This document shows positions 4,683 to 32,265 of a DNA stretch of 32,265 nt, piece after piece. Both the position numbers and the translations under genes were made by a program. The notes under the pieces are model-generated. The model did no database searches. It was not told the DNA's origin and was given only the letters and a program-made list of their open reading frames with translations. The stretch comes from Janthinobacterium sp. (GTDB lineage Bacteria; Pseudomonadota; Gammaproteobacteria; Burkholderiales; Burkholderiaceae_D), in assembly GCA_025356595.1 (NCBI GenBank), contig JANXSQ010000308.1, positions 1 to 32,265 on the forward strand, in the 5' to 3' direction. Each line of letters begins with the position of its first letter. The stretch's first letter is position 1.

Positions 4683-6921
<2,239 letters not shown>

Positions 6922-6925
<4 letters not shown>

Positions 6926-7611
6926 GAATCGCGATCATCCCGGCGCGCGGCGGCAGCAAACGCATCCCGCGCAAGAACATCAAGCCCTTCGCCGGCCGGC
7001 CGATGCTCGCCTACGCGATCGGCGCGGCGCGCGCCAGCGGCCTGTTCGAGCACATCGTCGTCAGCACCGACGACGCCGAGATCGCCGCGGCGGCCGTCGC
7101 GCTGGGCGCCGAGGTGCCCTTCATGCGCCCGGCCGAACTGTCGGACGACCACACGGCCACCATTCCGGTGCTGCAGCACGCCATCGGCGCCTGCCGGGCT
7201 CTGGGCTGGGACGCCGACCAGGTGTGCTGCATCTATCCCGGCGTGCCGATGCTGCAGGCCGCGGACCTGGGCGCGGCGCTGGCCCTGCTGGAGGACGGCG
7301 CGGCCGACTACGCCTTCACCGTGGCCGCCTTCCCGGCGGCCATCCAGCGCGCCCTGCGCCGCTCGCCGCAGGGCAGCATGGCGCCCTTCAATCCCGAGCA
7401 CGTGCTGACCCGCACCCAGGACCTGGAGCCGGCCTACTACGACGCCGGCCAGTTCTACTGGGGGCGGGTGGCGGCCTGGCTGGGCGGCGTCTCGCCGCAC
7501 CACAACGGCCGCGGCCTGGTGATCCCCGAATGGCGCGCCGTCGACATCGACACGCCGGACGACTGGCGCCGCGCCGAGCTGCTGTACCAGGCGCTGCACG
7601 CGCCGGCATGA
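6922..7611 (+). CDS. pseF: Pseudaminic acid cytidylyltransferase, PseF
   Basis: This enzyme activates pseudaminic acid with CTP to give CMP-pseudaminic acid, the donor used by transferases. The 229-residue protein begins with the CMP-sugar synthetase motif IPARGGSKRIPRKN (about 5-18), which binds the CTP. It also has the downstream FEHIVVSTDD segment shared with NeuA/PseF. Its length is normal for PseF. The start overlaps the pseC stop and its stop overlaps the pseG start, both by four bases. This is the last biochemical step but the third gene in the operon. That order is common in pse clusters and fits coordinated translation. Confidence 0.95.
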
Positions 7612-8690
7612 GCGGCGTCGTCTTCCGCGTCGACGCCTCGCTGGCCAGCGGCAGCGGGCACGTGATGCGCTGCCTGACGCTGGCCACGGCGCTGCGCGCC
7701 GGCGGCGCGGCCGTCAGCTTCGTCTGCCGCGTCCACCCCGGCCACCTGTGCGGGTTGATCGAGGAGCGCGGCTTCGCCGTGCGCCGCCTGGCGGCGCCGG
7801 ACCCGGCCTTCGTTCCCGCCGGCGGCCCCTACGCCGCCTGGCTGGGCGCGGCGCCGGCCGAGGACGCGGCGCAGACCCTGGCCGCGCTGGACGGCCGGCC
7901 CGACTGGCTGGTGGTCGACCACTACGCCATCGACGCCGCCTGGGAGGGCGCGCTGCGCGGCGCGGTGGGGCGCATCCTGGCGCTCGACGACCTGGCCGAG
8001 CGGCGCCACGATTGCGATATCCTGCTCGACCAGAACATGGTGGCCGGCATGGACGGGCGCTACGCCGGCCTGCTGCCGCCCGGCTGCGCGACGCTGCTGG
8101 GGCCGGACTACGCCCTGCTGCAGCCGGAATACGCCGAGTGGCGCGCGCGCCGCGCGCCGCCGCGCCAGCCGCCGCGGCGCCTGTTCGCCTTTTTCGGCGG
8201 CGTCGATCCGGCCGATTTGAGCGGCAAGACCCTGCAGGCCTTCCTGGCGCTGGGTCGCGCCGGGCTGGAGCTGGACCTGGTGCTGCCGACCCAATATCCG
8301 CAGGAGGCGCTGCGCGCCCGGGCCGCCGGCCACGCCAATGTGCGCCTGCACAGCGGCCTGCCCAGCCTGGCGCCCCTGATGGCGCGGGCCGACCTGGCGC
8401 TGGGCGCCTGCGGCGCGACGAGCTGGGAGCGCCTGGCGCTGCGCCTGCCGGCCCTGGTCGTGCTGGCGGCCGAGAACCCGCGCGCCGGCGCGCTCGAGCA
8501 GCAGCGCCGCGGCCTGGCTTTTTTGCTGGGGACGGCGGCCGAGCTGGACGCCGGGGCCATCCTGGCGGCGCTGCGCCGCGTCTACGCCGAGGGCGTGGCC
8601 GCGCTGGTGCCGGGCGCGCTGGAGGCGACGGTCGACGCCGGCGGCGTGCAAAGGGTGCTGCTGCGGATGGCGGCGCGGGAACGACAATGA
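7608..8690 (+). CDS. pseG: UDP-2,4-diacetamido-2,4,6-trideoxy-altropyranose hydrolase, PseG
   Basis: This inverting hydrolase removes UDP from the product of PseH, giving free 2,4-diacetamido-2,4,6-trideoxy-L-altrose. The 360-residue protein has a GT-B (MurG-like) fold. The N-terminal motif FRVDASLASGSGHVMRC contains H18, equivalent to the catalytic His of characterised PseG. A nucleotide-binding region follows (LFAFFGGVDPADL, about 193-205), and LALGACGATSWER near 265-278 is typical of this fold. I chose the ATG at 7608 because it overlaps the pseF stop; a longer open frame begins inside pseF and is not needed. Confidence 0.94.
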   Translation: MSGVVFRVDASLASGSGHVMRCLTLATALRAGGAAVSFVCRVHPGHLCGLIEERGFAVRRLAAPDPAFVPAGGPYAAWLGAAPAEDAAQTLAALDGRPDWLVVDHYAIDAAWEGALRGAVGRILALDDLAERRHDCDILLDQNMVAGMDGRYAGLLPPGCATLLGPDYALLQPEYAEWRARRAPPRQPPRRLFAFFGGVDPADLSGKTLQAFLALGRAGLELDLVLPTQYPQEALRARAAGHANVRLHSGLPSLAPLMARADLALGACGATSWERLALRLPALVVLAAENPRAGALEQQRRGLAFLLGTAAELDAGAILAALRRVYAEGVAALVPGALEATVDAGGVQRVLLRMAARERQ

Positions 8691-8703
8691 CAAGGGGAAC
8701 GGC

Positions 8704-9249
8704 ATGACGCAGCGCATCACACTCAGACTGGCCTCGGCCGACGACATCGACGAGGAATACCTCGCCTGGTACCGCAACGACGACCATTTGCTCGACACCT
8801 TCACTGGCTCGCGGCGCGTGTTCCGCGACGAGGAGGTGCGCGCCGACGTGCTGGCCAGCCAGGCCGGCGACCGCGTCGCCTACTGGCTGATACTCGACAC
8901 GGCCAGCGGGCGCAAGATCGGCAACGTCAAGATCGGCCCGATCGACCACGTCAACAAGACCTCGGACCTGGTCTGCTTCATCGGCGAGCGCCAGTTCCAC
9001 GGCCTCGGCCTGGCCAAGGAAGCCATCGCGCTGGCCTCGCGGCTGGCCTTCGAGCATTACGACATCCGCCGCCTGCAGGGCGGTATGTACGTCACCAACA
9101 TCGCCTCCATCAAGGCCTACCTGGCCGGCGGCTGGCGCGAAGAGGGCTTGTTGAAGGGCTACTACTGGGTCGACGGCGCGCCGGTCGACCGCTTGCTGGT
9201 GTGCTGCCTGAATCCCGCCTATTTTAGCGACACAGAAACCAATCAATAA
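8704..9249 (+). CDS. pseH: UDP-4-amino-4,6-dideoxy-altrosamine N-acetyltransferase, PseH
   Basis: This enzyme would acetylate the 4-amino group of the PseC product with acetyl-CoA. The 181-residue protein is a GNAT-fold acetyltransferase of the RimJ/RimL type. It has YWLILDTASGRKIGNVKIG (beta-hairpin) and the acetyl-CoA loop GERQFHGLGLAKEA, followed by IRRLQGGMYVTNIASIKAYL. A good Shine-Dalgarno (AAGGGGAAC) lies just before the ATG, and the same sequence precedes pseI. The position between pseG and pseI supports the PseH call over a generic GNAT. Substrate specificity itself cannot be read from the sequence. Confidence 0.9.
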   Translation: MTQRITLRLASADDIDEEYLAWYRNDDHLLDTFTGSRRVFRDEEVRADVLASQAGDRVAYWLILDTASGRKIGNVKIGPIDHVNKTSDLVCFIGERQFHGLGLAKEAIALASRLAFEHYDIRRLQGGMYVTNIASIKAYLAGGWREEGLLKGYYWVDGAPVDRLLVCCLNPAYFSDTETNQ

Positions 9250-9259
9250 GGGGAACACC

Positions 9260-10306
9260 ATGCGCGTGGGTCAATACACCATCGGAGCGGGCCACAAGCC
9301 CTTCATCATCGCCGAAATGTCGGGCAACCATAACCAGTCGCTGGAGCGGGCGCTGGAGATCGTCGAGGCGGCCGCGCGCAGCGGCGCCCAGGCGCTCAAG
9401 CTGCAGACCTACACGGCCGACACGATGACGCTCGACATCACCAGCGGCGAGTTCCGCATCGACGACGCGAACAGCCTGTGGCGGGGGCAGAACCTGCACG
9501 CCCTGTACCAGCAGGCCCACACGCCGTGGGAATGGCATGCGCCCATCATGCGCCGCGCCGCCGAACTGGGCATGGTCTGCTTCAGCACGCCCTTCGACGA
9601 CAGCTCGGTCGACTTCCTGGAAACGCTCGACGTGCCGGCCTATAAGATCGCCTCCTTCGAGGCCATCCACCTGCCGCTCATCGCCCGCGTGGCGGCGACC
9701 GGCAAGCCGCTGATCATCTCGACCGGCATGGCCAGCATCGCCGAAATCGACGAGGCGGTGCGCACGGCGCGCGCGGCCGGCTGCCGCGACCTGGTGCTGC
9801 TGAAGTGCACCAGCACCTACCCGGCCACGCCGCAGAACACCAACGTGCTGACCATCCCGCACATGCGCGCCCTGTTCGGCTGCGAAGTCGGCCTGTCCGA
9901 CCACACGATGGGCCTGGGCGCCTCGGTGGCGGCGGTGGCGCACGGCGCCAGCGTGATCGAAAAACACTTCACGCTGCGGCGCGCCGACGGCGGCGTCGAC
10001 AGCACCTTCTCGCTGGAGCCGGAGGAATTGACGGCGCTGGTGGTGGAGACCGAGCGGGCCTGGCAATCGCTGGGCCAGATCGCCTACGGGCCCACCGAGG
10101 CGGAAAAGAAATCGCTGGTCTACCGGCGCTCCGTCTACATCGCCGAGGACGTCAAGGCAGGCGCCGTGCTGACCGAGCAGAACCTGCGCTGCGTGCGGCC
10201 CGGCCTGGGCCTGGCGCCGAAATACTACGAGCTGCTGCTGGGCCGGCGCGTCAACCGCGACGCCGCTAAGGGCACGCCGATGAGCTGGGACCTGCTGGGG
10301 GGCTGA
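9260..10306 (+). CDS. pseI: Pseudaminic acid synthase, PseI
   Basis: This enzyme condenses 2,4-diacetamido-2,4,6-trideoxy-L-altrose with phosphoenolpyruvate to form pseudaminic acid, a nine-carbon sialic-acid-like sugar. The 348-residue NeuB-family protein has an N-terminal TIM barrel, including FIIAEMSGNHNQS (about 15-27), LKLQTYTADTMTLD (about 49-62), ISTGMAS (about 154-160) and VGLSDHTMGLG (about 213-223). A C-terminal SAF/antifreeze-like domain follows (about 290-348, RRSVYIAEDVKAG). The pattern fits PseI rather than NeuB or LegI, and the context agrees. The strong ribosome binding site AAGGGG overlaps the pseH stop. Confidence 0.95.
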   Translation: MRVGQYTIGAGHKPFIIAEMSGNHNQSLERALEIVEAAARSGAQALKLQTYTADTMTLDITSGEFRIDDANSLWRGQNLHALYQQAHTPWEWHAPIMRRAAELGMVCFSTPFDDSSVDFLETLDVPAYKIASFEAIHLPLIARVAATGKPLIISTGMASIAEIDEAVRTARAAGCRDLVLLKCTSTYPATPQNTNVLTIPHMRALFGCEVGLSDHTMGLGASVAAVAHGASVIEKHFTLRRADGGVDSTFSLEPEELTALVVETERAWQSLGQIAYGPTEAEKKSLVYRRSVYIAEDVKAGAVLTEQNLRCVRPGLGLAPKYYELLLGRRVNRDAAKGTPMSWDLLGG

Positions 10307-16251: not shown

Positions 16252-18987
16252 CTAGCGCTTCAGGACCAGGCCCTGGCCGGTCGGCAGCGGGAAGACGCGG
16301 TATTTGCGCGCCTCGAACCAGGCGTCCTCGGCGATTTTCTGGACGCGGTATTCGCCGGCCCATTCGTAGTCGTCGAGGATGACCATGCCGCCCGGGACGA
16401 CGCGCTCGAACAGGGCGTCGAGGACGGCGATTTCGAAGGCGGCGTTGTTCAGATCGATGTGCAGGTAGGCGATTTTTTGCGGCGAATTGCCTTCCAGCGA
16501 GGCCGGCAGCAGGCCCTTCACCAGCCTGACGTTGTCGTAGCCGGCGAAGCGTTGCTGGATCTGCTCGTACATGCCGTCTTCCTGGCCGACGAATTTATGT
16601 CCTTCGACGGGATTGTAGTCGTAGGTGTCGTAGCCCCAGAAGGTCTTGCTGAACTCGTCCTTGCCGAAATAGTCGATGACGGTCTTGATGCCGGTGCCGC
16701 GGTACACGCCGCACTCGACGAAATCGCCCTCCAGCTGCGAGCAATGGTAGGCCGAGCAGGCCAGGATGTAGCGGCGCCAGGCGATGGCGCGGTCGGCGTC
16801 GTTCTGCACGTTGGCCTCCCAGGCGCGCACGAAGGCCTGGTCCTCGAAGGGCGAGTTGTTCTTGCCCCAGGTGAAGAGGTTGTCGCCCAGGTAGGTGCCC
16901 GGCACGACCAGGGCCTTGGCCTCCTCCATCAGGGCGTAGAAGCGGGCCGGGTCGGTCAGGCCCCACACGGTTTGCACCATGAAATTCATGATGCGGCTCG
17001 GGTCGGCGATCGGGGTGTGCGCTGGCAGTTTCATGCTGTGTTCCTTTGCGGCGGGTGGGGCGAAGGGCGGCGCCGACGGCGCCATGGGGAGGGCGGCGCG
17101 GTCCGGCGACAGCGCCACGCTGCGGAACAAATCTTCCAGGTCGCGCACGAAGCGCGGGCTGTCGAACAGCGCGCAGCTGAGGCGCTGCTCTTGCAGTTGC
17201 TGTTTCATTTCGGCCACGCGGCGCGGCTGCAGCGCCAGGCCGACGGCCTTGTCCTCGTACTCCTGCAGGCTGTGCGTGACCAATTCGGGCAGATCGACCG
17301 CCAGCAGCAGGCTGCCGGCCATGCGCGAGGAGAAGGTGCGTCCGCTGCAGGTGAGCAGGGGCAGGCCGGCCCACAGCGCGTCGCTGGCGGTGGTGCCGGC
17401 GTTGAAGGGCATGGTGTCGAGGAACAGGTCGGCCACCTGGTAGCGCGCCAGGTAGTCGGCCGGCGTGACGCGCTCGGCGAACAGCAGGCGCGCCGGGTCG
17501 ATGTCGTGGGCGGCGGCGGCGGCGCGCAGGTTCTGCCGCACCATCTCGTGGTCCGACACCAACCACAGCACGCTGGCCGGGGCGCGCGCCAGGATGCGCA
17601 TCCAGCTGGCGAAAACTTCCTCGGTGAACTTGAAGTTGTTGTTGAAGGAGCAAAACACGAAGGCGTCCTCCGGCAGGCCGCAGGAGGCGCGCGTCGGCCG
17701 CGCGCCGATGGCGCGCTGGCGGTCGTTGATCTGGAAGGAGCGCGGCATGTACAGCGGCCGTTCGGTGAAGTAGGGCGCCAGTTCCGGCGGCAGCACGAAG
17801 GCGTCGGCGATCACATAGTCGATGCAGGGCAGGGCGGTCGGGCCGGGGAAGCCCAGGTAGGTCATCTGCACCGGCGCCGGGCGCCAGGACAGGATGTTCG
17901 GGCGCGTCCCCAGGGTCAGGCCGTGCAGGTCGACCAGGATGTCGATTTCGTGCGCCAGGATGCAGCGCGCGGCGGCCTCGTCGTCCATGCCGTCGATGCG
18001 GATGTAGTGGTCCATGGCGCTGACCACGCGGCTGCGCAGCGGCGTGCCGTCCTCGCGGCTCCAGGAAAAGGCGTACACCTCGACGCTGCTGCGGTCGTGC
18101 AGTTCGTAGAGTTCGGCCGTCAGGATGGAGACGGCGTGCGAGCACAGGTCGGAGGACAGGTAGCCGACGCGCAGGCGTTCGTGGCGGTAGCCCTGCGGCG
18201 GCGCCAGCGGCGCCGTCGCCGGCATGACTTTTTCGGCGACGAAGCGGCGCGAGGCGGCCAGTTGCTCGGCCGGATCGGTGTCGGCGCTCAGGCTGGCCAG
18301 CGCCGAGGTGGCCTCGATCATCTGCTGCTCGCTGACGCCGGCGATGGGCTGGTAGAGCGGCCACTGGCACAGCTTCTGGCGCAGGTGGATGACGTGGGTG
18401 AGCACCTTCGGCTGTTGCGGGTCGACCTGCAGGCTCTTGACGAGCACGTCGTTCGCTTCCGGCAACTGTTTGCGGATCTCCAGCAGGCGGCCCAGATTGT
18501 TCAGCGCCTGCAGATAGAAGTCGCGCTCGCCGGCCACCTCGGGCCGGGCCAGCGCCGTGACGCGGTTCCACAGCGTCAGCGCCTCGACGGGCAAGCCCCT
18601 GCGCTCGAGCAGGGTGCCCAGGTTCAGGTGGGCTTCGATGAAGTCCGGCTTGAGCGCCAGCGCGCGCCGGTAGCTTTCCTCGGCGCCGGCGTCGTCGTTC
18701 TGGTTGCCCAGGCTGACGGCGAGGTTGAACAGCACGGCGTAGGCGACCTCGGAGACGGTGTGCTCGAGCCAGAGGCGGTACAGGGCGACGGCGTCGGCGG
18801 TGCGCGCCGCCTGGATGTGCAACTGGCAGACGCTGAACAGTTCGACGATGGGCAGGGCGCCGCGGCGCGCCAGCGTCGCCGCGAGGGCGGGCGCGGCGGC
18901 CATCTGGTTGCCGGCGAGGGCGAGGCGGAGCGTTTGAAGCGGATCGGGCTGGTGGCGTGCGGGATTTTTTTTCATGATTTGAGTCAT
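16252..18987 (-). CDS. TPR + GT41 (SPINDLY/OGT-like) transferase fused to TylF-like methyltransferase
   Basis: This 911-residue protein has three parts. Residues about 20-210 are TPR-like helical repeats (for example ALKPDFIEAHLNLGTLLERR). Residues about 270-620 are a GT41 catalytic region: GYLSSDLCSHAVSILT with a His at the conserved position, FCSFNNNFKF with the Lys equivalent to the UDP-binding Lys of OGT, and GTTASDALWAGLPLLT. After a Pro/Ala linker (about 625-650), residues 652-911 are a class I methyltransferase of the TylF/macrocin O-methyltransferase type, with EGDFVECGVYRGTG and HIDLNNAAFE. GT41 enzymes put a sugar, usually GlcNAc, on Ser/Thr of proteins; the methyltransferase could cap the sugar. 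A second in-frame ATG at 18975 (MKKNP) is an alternative start. Neither start has a clear ribosome binding site. Confidence 0.88.
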   Translation of the reverse strand: MTQIMKKNPARHQPDPLQTLRLALAGNQMAAAPALAATLARRGALPIVELFSVCQLHIQAARTADAVALYRLWLEHTVSEVAYAVLFNLAVSLGNQNDDAGAEESYRRALALKPDFIEAHLNLGTLLERRGLPVEALTLWNRVTALARPEVAGERDFYLQALNNLGRLLEIRKQLPEANDVLVKSLQVDPQQPKVLTHVIHLRQKLCQWPLYQPIAGVSEQQMIEATSALASLSADTDPAEQLAASRRFVAEKVMPATAPLAPPQGYRHERLRVGYLSSDLCSHAVSILTAELYELHDRSSVEVYAFSWSREDGTPLRSRVVSAMDHYIRIDGMDDEAAARCILAHEIDILVDLHGLTLGTRPNILSWRPAPVQMTYLGFPGPTALPCIDYVIADAFVLPPELAPYFTERPLYMPRSFQINDRQRAIGARPTRASCGLPEDAFVFCSFNNNFKFTEEVFASWMRILARAPASVLWLVSDHEMVRQNLRAAAAAHDIDPARLLFAERVTPADYLARYQVADLFLDTMPFNAGTTASDALWAGLPLLTCSGRTFSSRMAGSLLLAVDLPELVTHSLQEYEDKAVGLALQPRRVAEMKQQLQEQRLSCALFDSPRFVRDLEDLFRSVALSPDRAALPMAPSAPPFAPPAAKEHSMKLPAHTPIADPSRIMNFMVQTVWGLTDPARFYALMEEAKALVVPGTYLGDNLFTWGKNNSPFEDQAFVRAWEANVQNDADRAIAWRRYILACSAYHCSQLEGDFVECGVYRGTGIKTVIDYFGKDEFSKTFWGYDTYDYNPVEGHKFVGQEDGMYEQIQQRFAGYDNVRLVKGLLPASLEGNSPQKIAYLHIDLNNAAFEIAVLDALFERVVPGGMVILDDYEWAGEYRVQKIAEDAWFEARKYRVFPLPTGQGLVLKR
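17032..17047 (-). promoter_or_regulatory. Internal ribosome binding site and ATG at the methyltransferase domain
   Basis: On the minus strand AAAGGAA (17041-17047), a six-base spacer CACAGC and ATG (17032-17034) lie in frame inside the fusion gene. They sit at the junction between the Pro/Ala linker and the methyltransferase domain. Translation from here would give a 260-residue stand-alone methyltransferase, close to the usual TylF-family length. The main start at 18987 has a much poorer site. Either both forms are made, or this is a relic of two genes that merged. Confidence 0.55.
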
Positions 18988-23097: not shown

Positions 23098-23423
23098 GCT
23101 GTTCCTTCGCTTCGCATGAATGGATTTAATAATACGCGGACGCCGGCATTGATAATGCGGCTATTTTTGCTTTTAATATAATGATATCGATAAATTAAAT
23201 AGGGCAACATTCAGCGTTGTTTTCCTGACGGGCATATAACATTGCCTTGAAGATATTGCTTCACGGCATGCAAAATTCACCGTATATTCGGCGTATTCGG
23301 AGTAGGATCGAACGGTGCCGAAGCCGCGCCGGCGCCGTCGCATCCCCGTCTCCCAGGTCCCGGCCGGCGGACGCGGATGGGGAATACACGTCGCTGTAAC
23401 ACCATAATATGTTGGAGACTATC
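23098..23423. promoter_or_regulatory. Divergent region between the EamA and chemoreceptor genes
   Basis: This stretch of 326 bases has no gene. It includes the most AT-rich sequence in the window (about 23160-23205). A perfect TATAAT at 23177-23182 lacks a suitably placed -35. For the chemoreceptor a better pair is TTGAAG (23247-23252), an 18-base spacer and CAAAAT (23271-23276). No FliA-type motif was found. The minus strand carries TATTAT (complement of 23129-23134), which could be the -10 box of the EamA gene. Confidence 0.3.
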
Positions 23424-25061
23424 GTGAAGAAACTGACCTTTCAGCAAAAATTATGGATCCCCTTGCTGTGCAGCTTATTGTGCATCACGGGGATCTTTTT
23501 GTATAACGCGGTGCAAACGCGCGACCTGCGCATCGAAGAGCGCAGCGGCGACTTGAGCAACCTCGGCGACATGGGCGTGAGCATCCTGAAAATGTACGGC
23601 GAGCTGGCCGAGACCGGCAAGATGAGCAAGGAGGAGGCGCAGAAACAGGCCATCGCCGTCGTCAAGGGCCTGCGCTACGGCAAGGACGGTTACCTGAGCA
23701 TCGTCACCACCGACACGGTGGCCCTGATGAACCCCTTCAAGCCGGCCAACGACGGCAAGGATGTCAGCGAGGTCAAGGATGTCAACGGCGTGTATCTGTA
23801 CCGCGACATCGTCAAGCTGGGCCGCAGCGACAGCGGCGCCGGCTTCGTGCGCTATGTCTGGCCGCGGCCGGGCGACACGGCGCCCTCGCCGAAGATGAGC
23901 CGCGTCAGCACCTACAAGCCGTGGGGCTGGATCATCATCAACGGCATGTACATGGATGACATCGACACCGCCTTCCGCCAGTCGCTGCTGAGCGCCGGCG
24001 GCTTGCTGCTGGCGGTCTGCGCGCTGCTCTCGGTGATCGTCACGACGATCAACCGCAGCCTGCGCCACGCCTTGGGCGGCGCGCCGGAGTACGCCGCCGA
24101 GGTGGCCGAGAAGATCGCCCGCAACGACTTGAGCGGCGTGGTCGCCACGCACAAGGACGACCGCAGCAGCGTCCTGTTCGCGATGAAGACCATGCAGAGC
24201 AACCTGGCGACGACGATAGGCGAAATCCGCAACAGCGCCGACACCATCGCCACCGCCTCGAGCGAAATCGCCAGCGGCAATATGGACCTGTCGGGACGCA
24301 CCGAATCGCAGGCCAGCGCGCTGGAGGAAACGGCCGCCTCGATGGAGGAACTGACCTCCACCGTGAAGCAGAACGTCGACAACGCCGTGCAGGCGAACCA
24401 GATGGCGCTGTCGGCCTCGGAGGTGGCGCAGCAGGGCGGCGCCGTGGTGTCCAAGGTGATCGCCACCATGGACACCATCAACGCCTCGGCCACGCGCATC
24501 GTCGACATCATCAGCGTCATCGACGGCATCGCCTTCCAGACCAACATCCTGGCGCTGAACGCGGCCGTGGAAGCGGCCCGCGCCGGCGAGCAGGGGCGTG
24601 GCTTCGCCGTGGTCGCCTCCGAGGTGCGCAACCTGGCCCACCGCAGCGCGGCGGCGGCCAAGGAAATCAAGGCCCTGATCGGCGACTCGGTCGACAGCAT
24701 CGCCGCCGGCAGCGCGCTGGTCGGCCAGGCCGGCGCGACGATGGACCAGGTGGTCGCTAGCGTCTCGCGGGTGACCGACATCATGGCCGAGATCACGGCC
24801 GCCTCGCGCGAGCAAAGCACCGGCATCGGCCACGTCAATCAGGCGATCGCGGAAATGGATTCGGTGACGCAGCAGAACGCGGCGCTGGTCGAACAGGCGG
24901 CGGCGGCGGCCGGCAGCATGCAGGACCAGGCCGCCAATCTGGCCGGCCTGGTGGCGCGCTTCAAGCTGGAGGAGGGCGAGGGCGGCATGCCGCGTCCGGC
25001 GCCGGCCGCGGCGGCGCGCGGCGTCAAGGCTCGTCCGGCGCGCGCGCTGGCGCTGCGCTGA
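23424..25061 (+). CDS. Methyl-accepting chemotaxis protein with Cache-type sensor
   Basis: This is a transmembrane chemoreceptor. From the GTG start it has 545 residues. TM1 (about 7-27) is followed by a periplasmic single-Cache domain (about 30-180, with [15 protein letters not shown] and [16 protein letters not shown]). TM2 (about 188-210) leads to a short linker and the cytoplasmic signalling helices, with the highly conserved tip [21 protein letters not shown] prefer GTG at 23424 over the in-frame ATG at 23409 because GGAG lies six bases before the GTG and the ATG has no ribosome binding site. The C terminus (ARALALR) lacks a CheR-binding pentapeptide. The Cache type suggests small organic acids as ligands, but the ligand is not known. 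Confidence 0.94.
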
Positions 25062-27661: not shown

Positions 27662-30600
27662 TCAGGCGCTCTCGGCCTGGGCCCGGAAGGCGGCCGCGTC
27701 GACCTGCGGCAGGGCGGCGTGGGCGGCCGCGAAGTGCGGCTGCGCGCCCCACAACGCCGCTTCGCCGATGATGTAGAAATAATGCTCGGCGCGGGTCAGC
27801 GCGACGTTGAGCAGGTTCGGCTTGGCCGCCGCCCACGCGGCCGCGCCGGCGCCGGCCTGGTCGGCGCCCAGCACCATCAGCACCATGCCCTGCTCCTTGC
27901 CCTGGAAGGTGTGCACGGTGCCGATGCGCTCGCGGCACCACTGCGCCAGTTGCTTGCGTTCCGGCGCCTGTTGCGCGCCGTCCCAGCCCATTTCCAGCAG
28001 GCGTTTGCGCACGGCGTCCTTGACGGCCTTGAACGGCGAGATGATGTACAGCGCCGGCAGGGCGCCGTCGCGCCGGTACAGGCCGCGCAGCACCTGCGCG
28101 ACCAGCTCCACCTGCTGCGGCACCACCTGCTTGAAGGTGGCGCGCCCGGCGACGTCGATCCAGGCGCTCTCGCCCAAGCCGGGCGCCTTGGCCGGCGGCG
28201 CGCGCCGGGCCATGCCGTAGACCATCTTGCCGCCGTAGGCGATGCCGTTCGAGAGCGAGAACATGGGTTCGGCGCAGCGCCGGTGCACGCGCAGCGGGCT
28301 GCCTATCCACAGGCCGCCGGCGTCGGCGCCGGCGACCAGCGTGCCGTAGGGATTGGCGGCGTCGGCCAGGCGCTGCACCGACACCTTGTCGGGCGCGTAG
28401 GCGCCGTCGCGGGTGTGCGGCGAGTGCGCCGACAGCGTCCGCACCAGTTGCGCCGGCACCGTGAACACCGGTTCGATCTGCAGCGGGTCGCCCACCACGA
28501 TGGCGCGGCGCGCCCGCCACAGCGCGCCGACGGCGGCCTGCGGCAGGGCCTGGCCGGCTTCGTCGATGAAGAGCCAGCCGATCGATTCGGCCTCCATGCC
28601 GCGGAACTGGCGCGCGAAGGAGGCGAAGGTGGTCGAGACCACCGGCACCACCATGAACAGGCTTTGCCAGATCGGCGCCACATGGGCGTCGTTGTCGGGG
28701 CGCTTGTTGTCGAGCAGCAGGGCGGCGGCGAACAGGTTGCCGCCGAAGCCGGCGCCGCCCTTCTGCGCCACTTCGGCCAGCCAGGCCTCGTGCAGGGCCA
28801 GCGCCTTGGCGAACAGCGTCGAGCGCAGGTGCGCCAGTTGCGTGTCCTGCCACAGGCCGCCGATCTGCGCGGCGTCCGTTTCCAGGTGGGCCGGGCTGGG
28901 CGGCGGCGTCAGGTGCGGGAAGCGGGCGCGGCACACGGCCAGGCGCGCCTGCGGCGCCTCCCAGGCGCGCTGGCTGGCCGCCAGGGCCACGCGGGCGGCG
29001 TCGGCGACGCTCTGGCAGCGCGTGCGGCGCGGCGCCATGACGCTGATGACGTGGGTCTTGGCGGCGGCGACGCGGCGCCCGGCGTGGCGCTGGGCGTCGG
29101 CGTTGCCGGCCACCTCGGCGCTGTGGCGGCGCGCGGCGGCGTTGCGCAGCAGGCGCGCCCACCAGGGCGGCGCGGCGCGGTTGAGCAGGCGCTCCTCCTC
29201 GCGCAGGGTGGCCAGGGCGTCGAGTTCGACGGCCATGGCCGCCTCGGCGCCGGCCAGCGCCTGCTGCGCGGCGTCGTCCTCGGCCAGGGCCTGGTCCAGC
29301 GCGTCCTGCTCGGCGCGGCAGAACTGCTCGCGCGGCGTGGTGCCGGCGCCCTGCCACAGGTCGGCGTATTCGGCCAGCTCGGCCAGGACCGCCTCGACCT
29401 GCTCCTCGGCGCCGCGGTAGTCGGCGGCGGCCTGGGCGAAGCTGGGGCCGCGGTAGCTTTCCAGCCACTGGCGGATGTTTTGCGGCGCGCCGGGACGCGC
29501 CCGGTCGCGCTCCTTGCTGTCGTAATAGAAGGTGGAGACGAAGTGCTTGCGGTTCTGGCTCTTGCCCAGCGCGCAGGAAATCAGGCCCCAGGGCAGGTCG
29601 CCCGGCGCCAGGTATTTGATCCTGCCGTCGCTGCCCTCGGCGGCCAGGCGCTGCGCCACCGATTGCAGGTAGCGCGCGCCGGACCAGGCGGCGCCCAGTT
29701 GCTTGCGCCGCGGCAGGTCGCTGGAAATGTTCTCCACGGCCGCGTTGTTCGACGAGGCCAGCACCATTTCAAAGCCGCACAGTTCGGGGCGCAGGCGGGC
29801 GATGGTGGCCGAGCGGCTGTCGCCGTTGAAGCCGATCTTGAGCTTGCCGACGAAGGCGTCCGAGGCCTTCTCCAGGCCGGCCAGCACGCCGGCGCGGCGG
29901 ACGATGTTTTCCGTGAAGATTTCGCGCAGCAGGGTGGTCTTGCCGGTGCCGGGCGGGCCGTTGACGGAGAACAGGCCGCGCTCGGCGACGTGCTGCAGGC
30001 CGGCGTTGATGGCGAACTGCTGCATCAGGCTCATCGAGCGGCTGGCGTCCTCCAGCCAGTGGCCGCGGTTGCCGTGCAGCGGATGCAGCATGTCGAGGAT
30101 GGCCTGGCGGCCGGCGTCGCTGTACAGGTCGGTGCGCTGGGCCGGCGCCAGCGGCGTCAGGTAGGCCGCCAGGGCGGCCGGCACCTGGCCGGCGCGCACG
30201 GCGCGGATGGCCCGCTCCAGGTCGTCGATGTAGAAGCTGTTGAGGATGTCGATGCTCGCCTCGGCGGCGAAATCGAGTTCGCCGTTGCGCGCCGGGGCGG
30301 GCGTGGGCGCCGTCTCGCCCGTCTCGGCCGGCGCGCCGGCCTTCTCGGTGCAGATCTCCAGCAGGGCGACGGGCTGGCCGCGCTCGGGCGTGAAATTCGC
30401 CCATTGCGCGAACAGCTCGTACAGCGCCAGGATGTCGGGGCCGCACAGGGCCGAGTTGGGCGCCGCGTCCGCCGCGGCGGGCGGGCGCGCGGCGCGGAAG
30501 TTCTGCAGGCGATCCTGCAAGTCCTGGCGGGCGCTGTCGAAGGCGTCCTGGGCCAGGCCGGACCAGCCCTGCGCCAGCATGTGGCCCAGCGCCCACGGCA

Positions 30601-30982
30601 CGGTGGACACCGAGACCGGCTCGAAACTGGCTTCGCCGGCCGCGTTCAGGGTGAGGCGGGCGAAGCAGGAGCGGCCCTGGGCGTTGCCGCGCTCGGCCTC
30701 GTCGAACTGCGCGCCGGGCGCGGCGGCGCAGGCGCGGCCGATTTCTTCCTTGTCGAAGACGCCGAGGAAGAGCTTGAAGCCGCTCACGCGCAGCTCGGGC
30801 GGCACGCTCAGGCGCGCCAGGAAGTCGGCCGGCTGGCCGGCCAGATCGCTGCGCGTCAGCCAGCGCAGCTTCCACTCATCCTGTGTGTCGCTGACCTGGG
30901 ACAGGTCGAAGGGCACGAAAAATTCGATCTTGTGCCAATAGTCGAGAATGTCGAGAAGGCGCTGCTGTTCTACCTGAGTCAT
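27662..30982 (-). CDS. Superfamily 1 (DNA2/NAM7/Upf1-like) helicase, AAA domain
   Basis: This is a large 1106-residue ATP-dependent helicase-like protein. The N-terminal 300 residues are unassigned. Walker A is GPPGTGKTTLL (about 340) and the coupling region is SSNNAAVEN (about 405). A charged insert with coiled-coil character spans about 560-640. Walker B is FIDEAGQALPQ (about 805), motif III is VGDPLQIEPVF, motif V is VHTFQGKEQG and motif VI is LNVALTRAEHYFYI (about 1055). No nuclease motif is seen. The start chosen is MTQVEQQRL; the upstream part of the open frame is Arg-rich and unconvincing, and no clear ribosome binding site is seen. It is a single gene. It may act in nucleic-acid repair, RNA metabolism or defence, but none is shown by the sequence. 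Confidence 0.9.
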   Translation of the reverse strand: MTQVEQQRLLDILDYWHKIEFFVPFDLSQVSDTQDEWKLRWLTRSDLAGQPADFLARLSVPPELRVSGFKLFLGVFDKEEIGRACAAAPGAQFDEAERGNAQGRSCFARLTLNAAGEASFEPVSVSTVPWALGHMLAQGWSGLAQDAFDSARQDLQDRLQNFRAARPPAAADAAPNSALCGPDILALYELFAQWANFTPERGQPVALLEICTEKAGAPAETGETAPTPAPARNGELDFAAEASIDILNSFYIDDLERAIRAVRAGQVPAALAAYLTPLAPAQRTDLYSDAGRQAILDMLHPLHGNRGHWLEDASRSMSLMQQFAINAGLQHVAERGLFSVNGPPGTGKTTLLREIFTENIVRRAGVLAGLEKASDAFVGKLKIGFNGDSRSATIARLRPELCGFEMVLASSNNAAVENISSDLPRRKQLGAAWSGARYLQSVAQRLAAEGSDGRIKYLAPGDLPWGLISCALGKSQNRKHFVSTFYYDSKERDRARPGAPQNIRQWLESYRGPSFAQAAADYRGAEEQVEAVLAELAEYADLWQGAGTTPREQFCRAEQDALDQALAEDDAAQQALAGAEAAMAVELDALATLREEERLLNRAAPPWWARLLRNAAARRHSAEVAGNADAQRHAGRRVAAAKTHVISVMAPRRTRCQSVADAARVALAASQRAWEAPQARLAVCRARFPHLTPPPSPAHLETDAAQIGGLWQDTQLAHLRSTLFAKALALHEAWLAEVAQKGGAGFGGNLFAAALLLDNKRPDNDAHVAPIWQSLFMVVPVVSTTFASFARQFRGMEAESIGWLFIDEAGQALPQAAVGALWRARRAIVVGDPLQIEPVFTVPAQLVRTLSAHSPHTRDGAYAPDKVSVQRLADAANPYGTLVAGADAGGLWIGSPLRVHRRCAEPMFSLSNGIAYGGKMVYGMARRAPPAKAPGLGESAWIDVAGRATFKQVVPQQVELVAQVLRGLYRRDGALPALYIISPFKAVKDAVRKRLLEMGWDGAQQAPERKQLAQWCRERIGTVHTFQGKEQGMVLMVLGADQAGAGAAAWAAAKPNLLNVALTRAEHYFYIIGEAALWGAQPHFAAAHAALPQVDAAAFRAQAESA

Positions 30983-31368: not shown

Positions 31369-32058
31369 ATGACCGTAGAAAACAAAAAAGTTGTGTATGG
31401 GACGGAAGACTTGCTCATAACTCTGTGCAACTCCGTCACCCGAGTCTTGAACATCGCGATGCACAGCAAGGTTCATTACTCCGGCATGGTGCAGCGCATC
31501 ACCAAGGTGGGCCTGAAGCCCGACATCGGCTGCTTCGTGCTGTTCGACGGCGGCTTCACGGGCCTGGTGGTGCTCAACTTCGCCGCCGACACGGCCATGG
31601 AGGTGTACGAGAAGTACATGCTGAACATGGGCATGCCGAAGTCGGAGCTGGCGAAGTCGCACACTTCGGACGAGGTCGGCAACATCATGGGCGAGCTGAT
31701 GAACCAGATCGTCGGCGACTTCACCGGCAAGGTGCGCCGCGAATTGCAGACCAACATCACGCAAAACCAGCCGAAAATGTTGGTGCTCAACAAGCAGGTG
31801 ATGCTCAGCGTGGACGCGCCGCTGGATCGTCCCGAGATGCGCCGCGTCACCTTCTACACGGAAAAAAACAATATTTTCTACCTGGAACTGGCGATCGACC
31901 GCACCGAGTTCATCAAGCTGCACGACTTCGATTCCAGCGACGAACTCGATCCGGACGAACTGATGGCGCTCGAGCAGGGCAACCAGGAAGCGGCGGCGGC
32001 GCCGGCGGAGGCGCCGGCCGCCGACAATGACGATTTGCTCAGGTCGCTGGGCATGTAA
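31369..32058 (+). CDS. DUF3334 family protein, CheC/CheX-like, with a CheZ-like C-terminal peptide
   Basis: The 229-residue cytoplasmic protein matches, from memory, the uncharacterised DUF3334 family of gammaproteobacteria and betaproteobacteria. It contains DEVGNIMGELMNQIVGDF (101-118) with two ExxN motifs (E102-N105 and E109-N112), the phosphatase signature of the CheC/CheX proteins that dephosphorylate CheY-P. An acidic stretch (DSSDELDPDELMALEQ) and an Ala/Pro linker lead to the terminal peptide DDLLRSLGM. This is nearly the same as the CheY-binding end of E. coli CheZ (DDLLDSLGF). The ATG at 31369 has AAGGA six bases upstream; a TTG two codons earlier is less likely. The gene has its own promoter and a strong terminator. 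A phosphatase role is inference. Confidence 0.82.
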   Translation: MTVENKKVVYGTEDLLITLCNSVTRVLNIAMHSKVHYSGMVQRITKVGLKPDIGCFVLFDGGFTGLVVLNFAADTAMEVYEKYMLNMGMPKSELAKSHTSDEVGNIMGELMNQIVGDFTGKVRRELQTNITQNQPKMLVLNKQVMLSVDAPLDRPEMRRVTFYTEKNNIFYLELAIDRTEFIKLHDFDSSDELDPDELMALEQGNQEAAAAPAEAPAADNDDLLRSLGM

Positions 32059-32078: not shown

Positions 32079-32115
32079 AAACGGGGTCGCTCCAGATGGA
32101 GACGACCCCGTTTTT
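32079..32115 (+). terminator. Intrinsic terminator after the DUF3334 gene
   Basis: AAACGGGGTCG (32079-32089) pairs with CGACCCCGTTT (32103-32113), and an inner CTCC-AGAT-GGAG extends the stem. The hairpin ends in five T (32111-32115). The A-tract on the left side lets it work in both directions, also for the gene at the right edge. Confidence 0.92.
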
Positions 32116-32171: not shown

Positions 32172-32265
32172 TTAGAACGCTTCCCAGGCGTCTTCGGGCT
32201 CGACGGCGGCGCGTCTGGCCGGCGCGCGGGCCGGATTGGCCGCGCCGCGCGCCGCTGCCCGCAGC
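32172..32265 (-). CDS. 3' end of a gene, probably a methyl-accepting chemotaxis protein (partial)
   Basis: Only the last 30 codons are in the window, read leftwards to a TAA at 32172-32174. The product ends in an Ala/Pro/Arg-rich stretch followed by EPEDAWEAF. A short flexible tail ending in a W-E-x-F peptide is typical of chemoreceptors, where NWETF-like pentapeptides bind CheR/CheB. The bidirectional terminator just beyond the stop supports a real gene end. The identification rests on one short motif. Confidence 0.45.
   Translation of the reverse strand, partial: LRAAARGAANPARAPARRAAVEPEDAWEAF

Follow-up and report, generated by a model that had tools for sequence, protein, structure and literature searches.

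DUF3334 of a Janthinobacterium contig: a predicted CheX-fold protein with a CheZ-like terminal peptide in genomes that also encode CheZ

Can a single protein combine the core of one chemotaxis phosphatase with the CheY-docking end of another? The question is raised by the gene of a DUF3334 protein that lies near the end of a 32,265-nucleotide stretch of DNA from Janthinobacterium sp. (assembly GCA_025356595.1, contig JANXSQ010000308.1, positions 1 to 32,265; hereafter the window). An earlier note, made from the sequence alone, had proposed that this protein joins a CheX-like active site to a CheZ-like CheY-binding peptide. The interpretation as a CheX core with a CheZ-like tail is supported by the present analysis, and from it we infer, with a probability of about 0.62, that DUF3334 acts on response regulators as a phosphatase of the CheX type, extended by a CheZ-type docking arm and used besides CheZ; phosphatase activity, the client and docking on CheY are the conditional parts of this proposal. 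The gene and its parts are as follows.

31369 to 32058, plus strand: DUF3334 gene, 229 amino acids, from the ATG at 31369 to a stop codon ending at 32058.
31399 to 31929, plus strand: CheX-fold core by predicted structure, residues 11-187.
31672 to 31683, plus strand: E102-x2-N105, the first ExxN, which drifts to D and is probably not the active pair.
31693 to 31704, plus strand: E109-x2-N112, predicted catalytic pair (the E-x2-N of CheX), by conservation and a weak hhalign alignment.
31930 to 32022, plus strand: variable acidic and Ala/Pro linker, residues 188-218, of low identity and low predicted local distance difference test (pLDDT) score.
32023 to 32055, plus strand: CheZ-like terminal peptide DNDDLLRSLGM, residues 219-229, by its conserved end, a genome motif match and a predicted helix.

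The elements that had been read from the sequence, namely two ExxN motifs, an acidic segment, an Ala/Pro linker and a final DDLLRSLGM (residues 221-229), are all present in the 229-residue frame, with the acidic and then Ala/Pro-rich stretch coming after about residue 186. The Pfam family DUF3334 (PF11813) spans the full length of the protein (372 bits, profile positions 2-226 of 226), and the gene is present in single copy in the host genome. The CheX model PF13690 also matches, at residues 54-130 (30.5 bits versus a cut-off of 27), and it exceeds its curated cut-off in 20 of 20 carrier genomes; the NCBIfam CheX model of Thermotogales scores the window protein far under its cut-off (16.7 versus 280). 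No other Pfam model was matched at E <= 10, CheZ (PF04344) and SPOA included. CheX superfamily membership is easily found with Pfam, and what is new is therefore that the protein has this tail and occurs together with CheZ. No paper on DUF3334 was found in the literature searched, in which most subscription papers were lacking, nor was the protein reported among the matches listed there for chemotaxis phosphatases and CheZ peptides. It also goes unreported in the available parts of PMC3035606, PMC6946799, PMC3774744, PMC5760072, PMC7750401 and PMC8789113. One of them places VC0377 in the CheX family, with its role given as undetermined (PMC8789113).

The fold predicted for residues 11-187 is that of CheX, over the length of CheX, and the comparison with CheX structures (Thermotoga maritima 1squ/1xko, Desulfovibrio 3hm4, Borrelia 3hzh and Vibrio vulnificus 6vpw), at 12-17% identity in structural alignments, bears out the proposed CheX-like core at the level of prediction. 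DUF3334 shares with CheX this predicted fold, an E-x2-N pair and the Pfam model, but is longer by approximately 40 residues, which comprise the linker and the CheZ-like end. All 14 classic CheX proteins taken from carrier genomes stop right after the fold.

CheC, CheX and FliY insert an asparagine and an acidic residue into the active site of the receiver, the asparagine of CheX in the complex 3HZH being N99 (PMC3035606). Both ExxN pairs of DUF3334 lie within DEVGNIMGELMNQ, and a long predicted helix (residues 100-126) bears the conserved pair. E109 and N112 are invariant in 100 of 100 sequences; E102 is replaced by D in 5 of these and N105 by D in 7. Because hhalign, at a weak score, pairs GELMNQIVGD of DUF3334 with GEITNMVTGG of classic CheX, E109-x2-N112 is most likely the CheX catalytic pair. 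The classic CheX stretch opposite E102-N105 reads EVTD. Of the two motifs taken as a CheX signature, only the second is thus matched to the pair of CheX, and the first, which drifts to D, is probably not catalytic; two active pairs were rejected as unlikely on account of this drift. CheC carries two active sites, and two ExxN motifs were seen in a CheC protein (C74), whereas DUF3334 has one invariant pair and none on its first helix in an alignment judged by eye. DUF3334 might instead be a non-catalytic relative of CheX that binds CheY-P by its tail and so buffers it or competes with CheZ and FliM, but a pure binder has no need of two catalytic residues that are identical throughout the family sample, and such a role is very unlikely.

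The homologues examined include the best 80 of 575 confirmed DUF3334 loci, a choice that biases this set to close relatives (all recorded as Burkholderiales or betaproteobacterial), and 19 members drawn from the phylum, of which 14 come from families outside the host's order, within its class. The same species may be present twice in these sets, the tails of L213 and L038 being near-identical. One alignment (A1) holds the window protein and 53 of the 80; a second (A2) holds the window protein, 11 of the 80 and 16 of the 19, with L087, L095 and L104 left out. Over the core, the close set averages an identity of 0.88 with the window protein and the phylum-drawn set 0.66; the means fall to 0.35 and 0.24 along the linker (residues 190-217) and climb back to 0.75 and 0.56 over the last ten residues. 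The pLDDT of the linker is 35-52 per block of ten residues, and a short helix is predicted with low confidence at residues 219-226. The protein ends in [LM][LM]xxLG-hydrophobic in 98 of the 100 sequences, the exceptions being L103 (FLANLGL) and L104 (no tail), and the tail is present in eight of eight further members from the host's order, one of them reading FLKSLGM. Overall, an (L/F)(L/M)xxLG-hydrophobic end is kept in 107 of 108 members, which represent the host's order as well as other families of its class, as the proposal of a conserved C-terminal peptide had anticipated. L104 (genome G290, positions 1501-2097) encodes a DUF3334 protein with the core and E-x2-N intact and the terminal peptide missing, which is either a natural variant or an error.

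CheZ likewise ends in LLxxLG-hydrophobic-stop on a linker of approximately 30 residues, although the two cores are unrelated. The linker of Escherichia coli CheZ spans residues 169-199 and its C-terminal helix residues 199-214 (PMC7750401), a spacing much like that of DUF3334. The likeness of the ends was examined with a DNA pattern, (D/E)(L/F)(L/F)xx(L/F)G-hydrophobic-stop, in which Phe was allowed for Leu and TGG for the stop. The host genome (5.67 Mb) contains the pattern twice, at the DUF3334 end and at the CheZ end, and the reversed control not at all, which argues that the motif of the DUF3334 tail is more than chance. There are 48 matches in 20 carrier genomes, assigned by hand to 20 CheZ ends and 15 DUF3334 ends, with 13 elsewhere (reversed control, 23), and 45 matches in 30 genomes without DUF3334 that we chose from the CheZ-bearing list, of which 32 are CheZ ends and 13 lie elsewhere (control, 28). 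Pooled over the 50 genomes, matches outside CheZ and DUF3334 number 26 versus 51 for the reversed control, so the motif is not in excess there. The tail could still resemble that of CheZ by coincidence, the protein being in all else an ordinary CheX and the peptide serving to localise it or to mediate self-association: the motif is short, the invariant Val and Phe of CheZ are absent, and sequence search gave no support. The counts just given, with CheZ as the only other site in the host genome, and the conservation of the peptide behind a fast-changing linker make such a coincidence unlikely.

Among 398 sampled Pseudomonadota genomes, 20 encode DUF3334 and 152 encode CheZ; the corresponding numbers for 399 genomes from the host's order are 14 and 239. 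CheZ is present in every carrier (20/20 and 14/14; 28 distinct genomes including the host), a co-occurrence with a Fisher p of 2e-9 for Pseudomonadota and 0.001 for the host's order when relatedness is ignored, and classic CheX is also present in 14 of 20 carriers. Several of the 14 members from outside the host's order probably come from Vibrio-like bacteria, to judge by the likeness of their classic CheX to the V. vulnificus protein. The thought that genomes with DUF3334 might lack cheZ proved wrong, and a role as a CheZ substitute in cheZ-less genomes was rejected: because the host and the 27 other carriers examined keep cheZ, DUF3334 is an addition to CheZ and not its replacement. Coexistence with CheZ and classic CheX also means that duties may be divided, and the same architecture might serve another client, such as the receiver domain of CheV or a second CheY paralogue, rather than the flagellar CheY that CheZ serves. 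This reading, which overlaps with ours and which we hold unlikely but worth keeping in view, gains from the departure of the tail from that of CheZ at positions -10, -5 and -1, and from the four CheY and several CheV of Vibrio cholerae (PMC3774744, PMC8789113), a species not surveyed for DUF3334. It loses from the common LLxxLG-hydrophobic end, which points to the same face of CheY, and from the lack of a receiver gene as a recurrent neighbour (only 8 of 108 loci have a receiver domain within 2.5 kb).

Several observations weigh against DUF3334 as a CheX-type phosphatase with a CheZ-type arm. The pLDDT of the structure model is 62, the hhalign comparison with the classic CheX profile is weak (probability 1.6%, E 0.032, from shallow alignments), and sequence searches of the PDB with the protein and with the DUF3334 profile (A2) found no CheX or CheZ chain. 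The tails of the 30 best-scoring CheZ loci and of the host's own CheZ read VDDLLxxLGF in 31 of 31, whereas the Val is found in 0 of 100 DUF3334 sequences, the final residue is M, I or L rather than Phe in 99 of 100, and K or R stands at position -5 in 86 of 100. The tail is missing from L104, and the DNA pattern missed the DUF3334 end in 5 of 20 carriers, four of which have no D/E before LL and one no tail. Two DUF3334 tails, as short queries, found no PDB chain by sequence. With Val and Phe missing and the PDB searches empty, the client could be another receiver, or the affinity may differ from that of CheZ. On the genomic side, no che operon was seen around the DUF3334 loci, whose neighbours were not annotated one by one, and the upstream regions gave no signal of a FliA (sigma-28) promoter, their mean best score being 15.2 versus 15.0 for shuffled sequence (n = 108), with 5 of 108 upstream regions exceeding all 20 of their own shuffles.

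If DUF3334 is nevertheless a tethered phosphatase, its action may be pictured as follows. Residues 11-187 form the CheX fold, by prediction, and E109 and N112 of the long helix would enter the active site of the receiver, where, judging from their conservation and the published chemistry of CheX, N112 would orient the attacking water and E109 meet the conserved Lys, so that the phosphoryl group is removed. The unconserved linker of approximately 30 residues bears the terminal LL-x-x-LG-hydrophobic peptide, which may dock, as in CheZ, on CheY-P or a receiver akin to it, at the alpha4-beta5-alpha5 face, raising the local concentration of the substrate and favouring its active form. The enzyme would work beside CheZ, not in its stead, as the co-occurrence in 28 of 28 carriers suggests. 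The face of CheY that CheZ binds is shared by FliM (PMC3774744). The same protein would then carry features of both CheX and CheZ. These are reportedly, after Pazy et al. in 2010, unrelated folds with the same chemistry and different modes of binding CheY. The nearest precedent is FliY, in which a CheC-type domain is joined to an N-terminal FliM-like CheY-binding peptide; FliY sits in the motor, and the peptide of DUF3334 is C-terminal and CheZ-like. FliY has a SPOA domain besides its CheC-family phosphatase domain (PMC6946799), unlike DUF3334.

The surroundings of the gene vary by lineage, and as far as could be observed it has no constant partner. Of 100 loci, 13 have a chemoreceptor signalling domain within 1.5 kb, a count to which related genomes contribute several and from which the fragment of the window is excluded; with neighbours so lineage-specific, and given the receiver count above, a chemotaxis operon setting was dropped. 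The window itself ends in one further feature.

32172 to 32264, minus strand: C-terminal fragment of a probable chemoreceptor, by translation, ending EDAWEAF; convergent neighbour, cut by the contig end.

The earlier note had placed a probable chemoreceptor end beside DUF3334; a C-terminal fragment does adjoin the gene and likely belongs to a chemoreceptor. The gap between the DUF3334 stop and this convergent end holds, as judged by eye, a strong inverted repeat and then a run of T (about 32080-32115), probably a shared terminator. At locus L037 (1324-1749, minus strand), a small frame with a single receiver domain lies approximately 10-15 bases downstream of DUF3334, convergent with it and followed by a chemoreceptor. 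Elsewhere in the window, 6.3 kb upstream of DUF3334, lies the gene of a chemoreceptor (23409-25061) that has a Cache domain and an MCP signalling domain, and the gene next to DUF3334 (27662-30982, minus strand) encodes a large protein in which AAA_11 and AAA_12 domains of the helicase type are present. A 911-residue chain (16252-18987, minus strand) combines TPR repeats, Glyco_transf_41 and a TylF-type methyltransferase domain. A gene run at 4770-10306 resembles pseudaminic- or legionaminic-type sugar biosynthesis, with a Polysacc_synt_2 dehydratase and NeuB identified by Pfam and the remaining genes as putative members; the run possibly serves flagellin glycosylation.

The odds are about even, in our judgement, that the peptide with which CheZ docks on CheY is a portable module, acquired by or independently evolved on the unrelated CheX phosphatase fold to yield an enzyme that catalyses as CheX does and captures its substrate as CheZ does, and that some motile Proteobacteria use this enzyme in parallel with CheZ, so that two enzymes, tethered by convergence, clear CheY-P within the same cell. 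If true, a CheX-type enzyme with a CheZ tether would blur the divide between the two folds and show the tether to be a separable part, and a family named in Pfam only as one of unknown function would gain a testable one. Models of chemotaxis in the carrier bacteria that count CheZ alone would then overlook a signal-termination enzyme.
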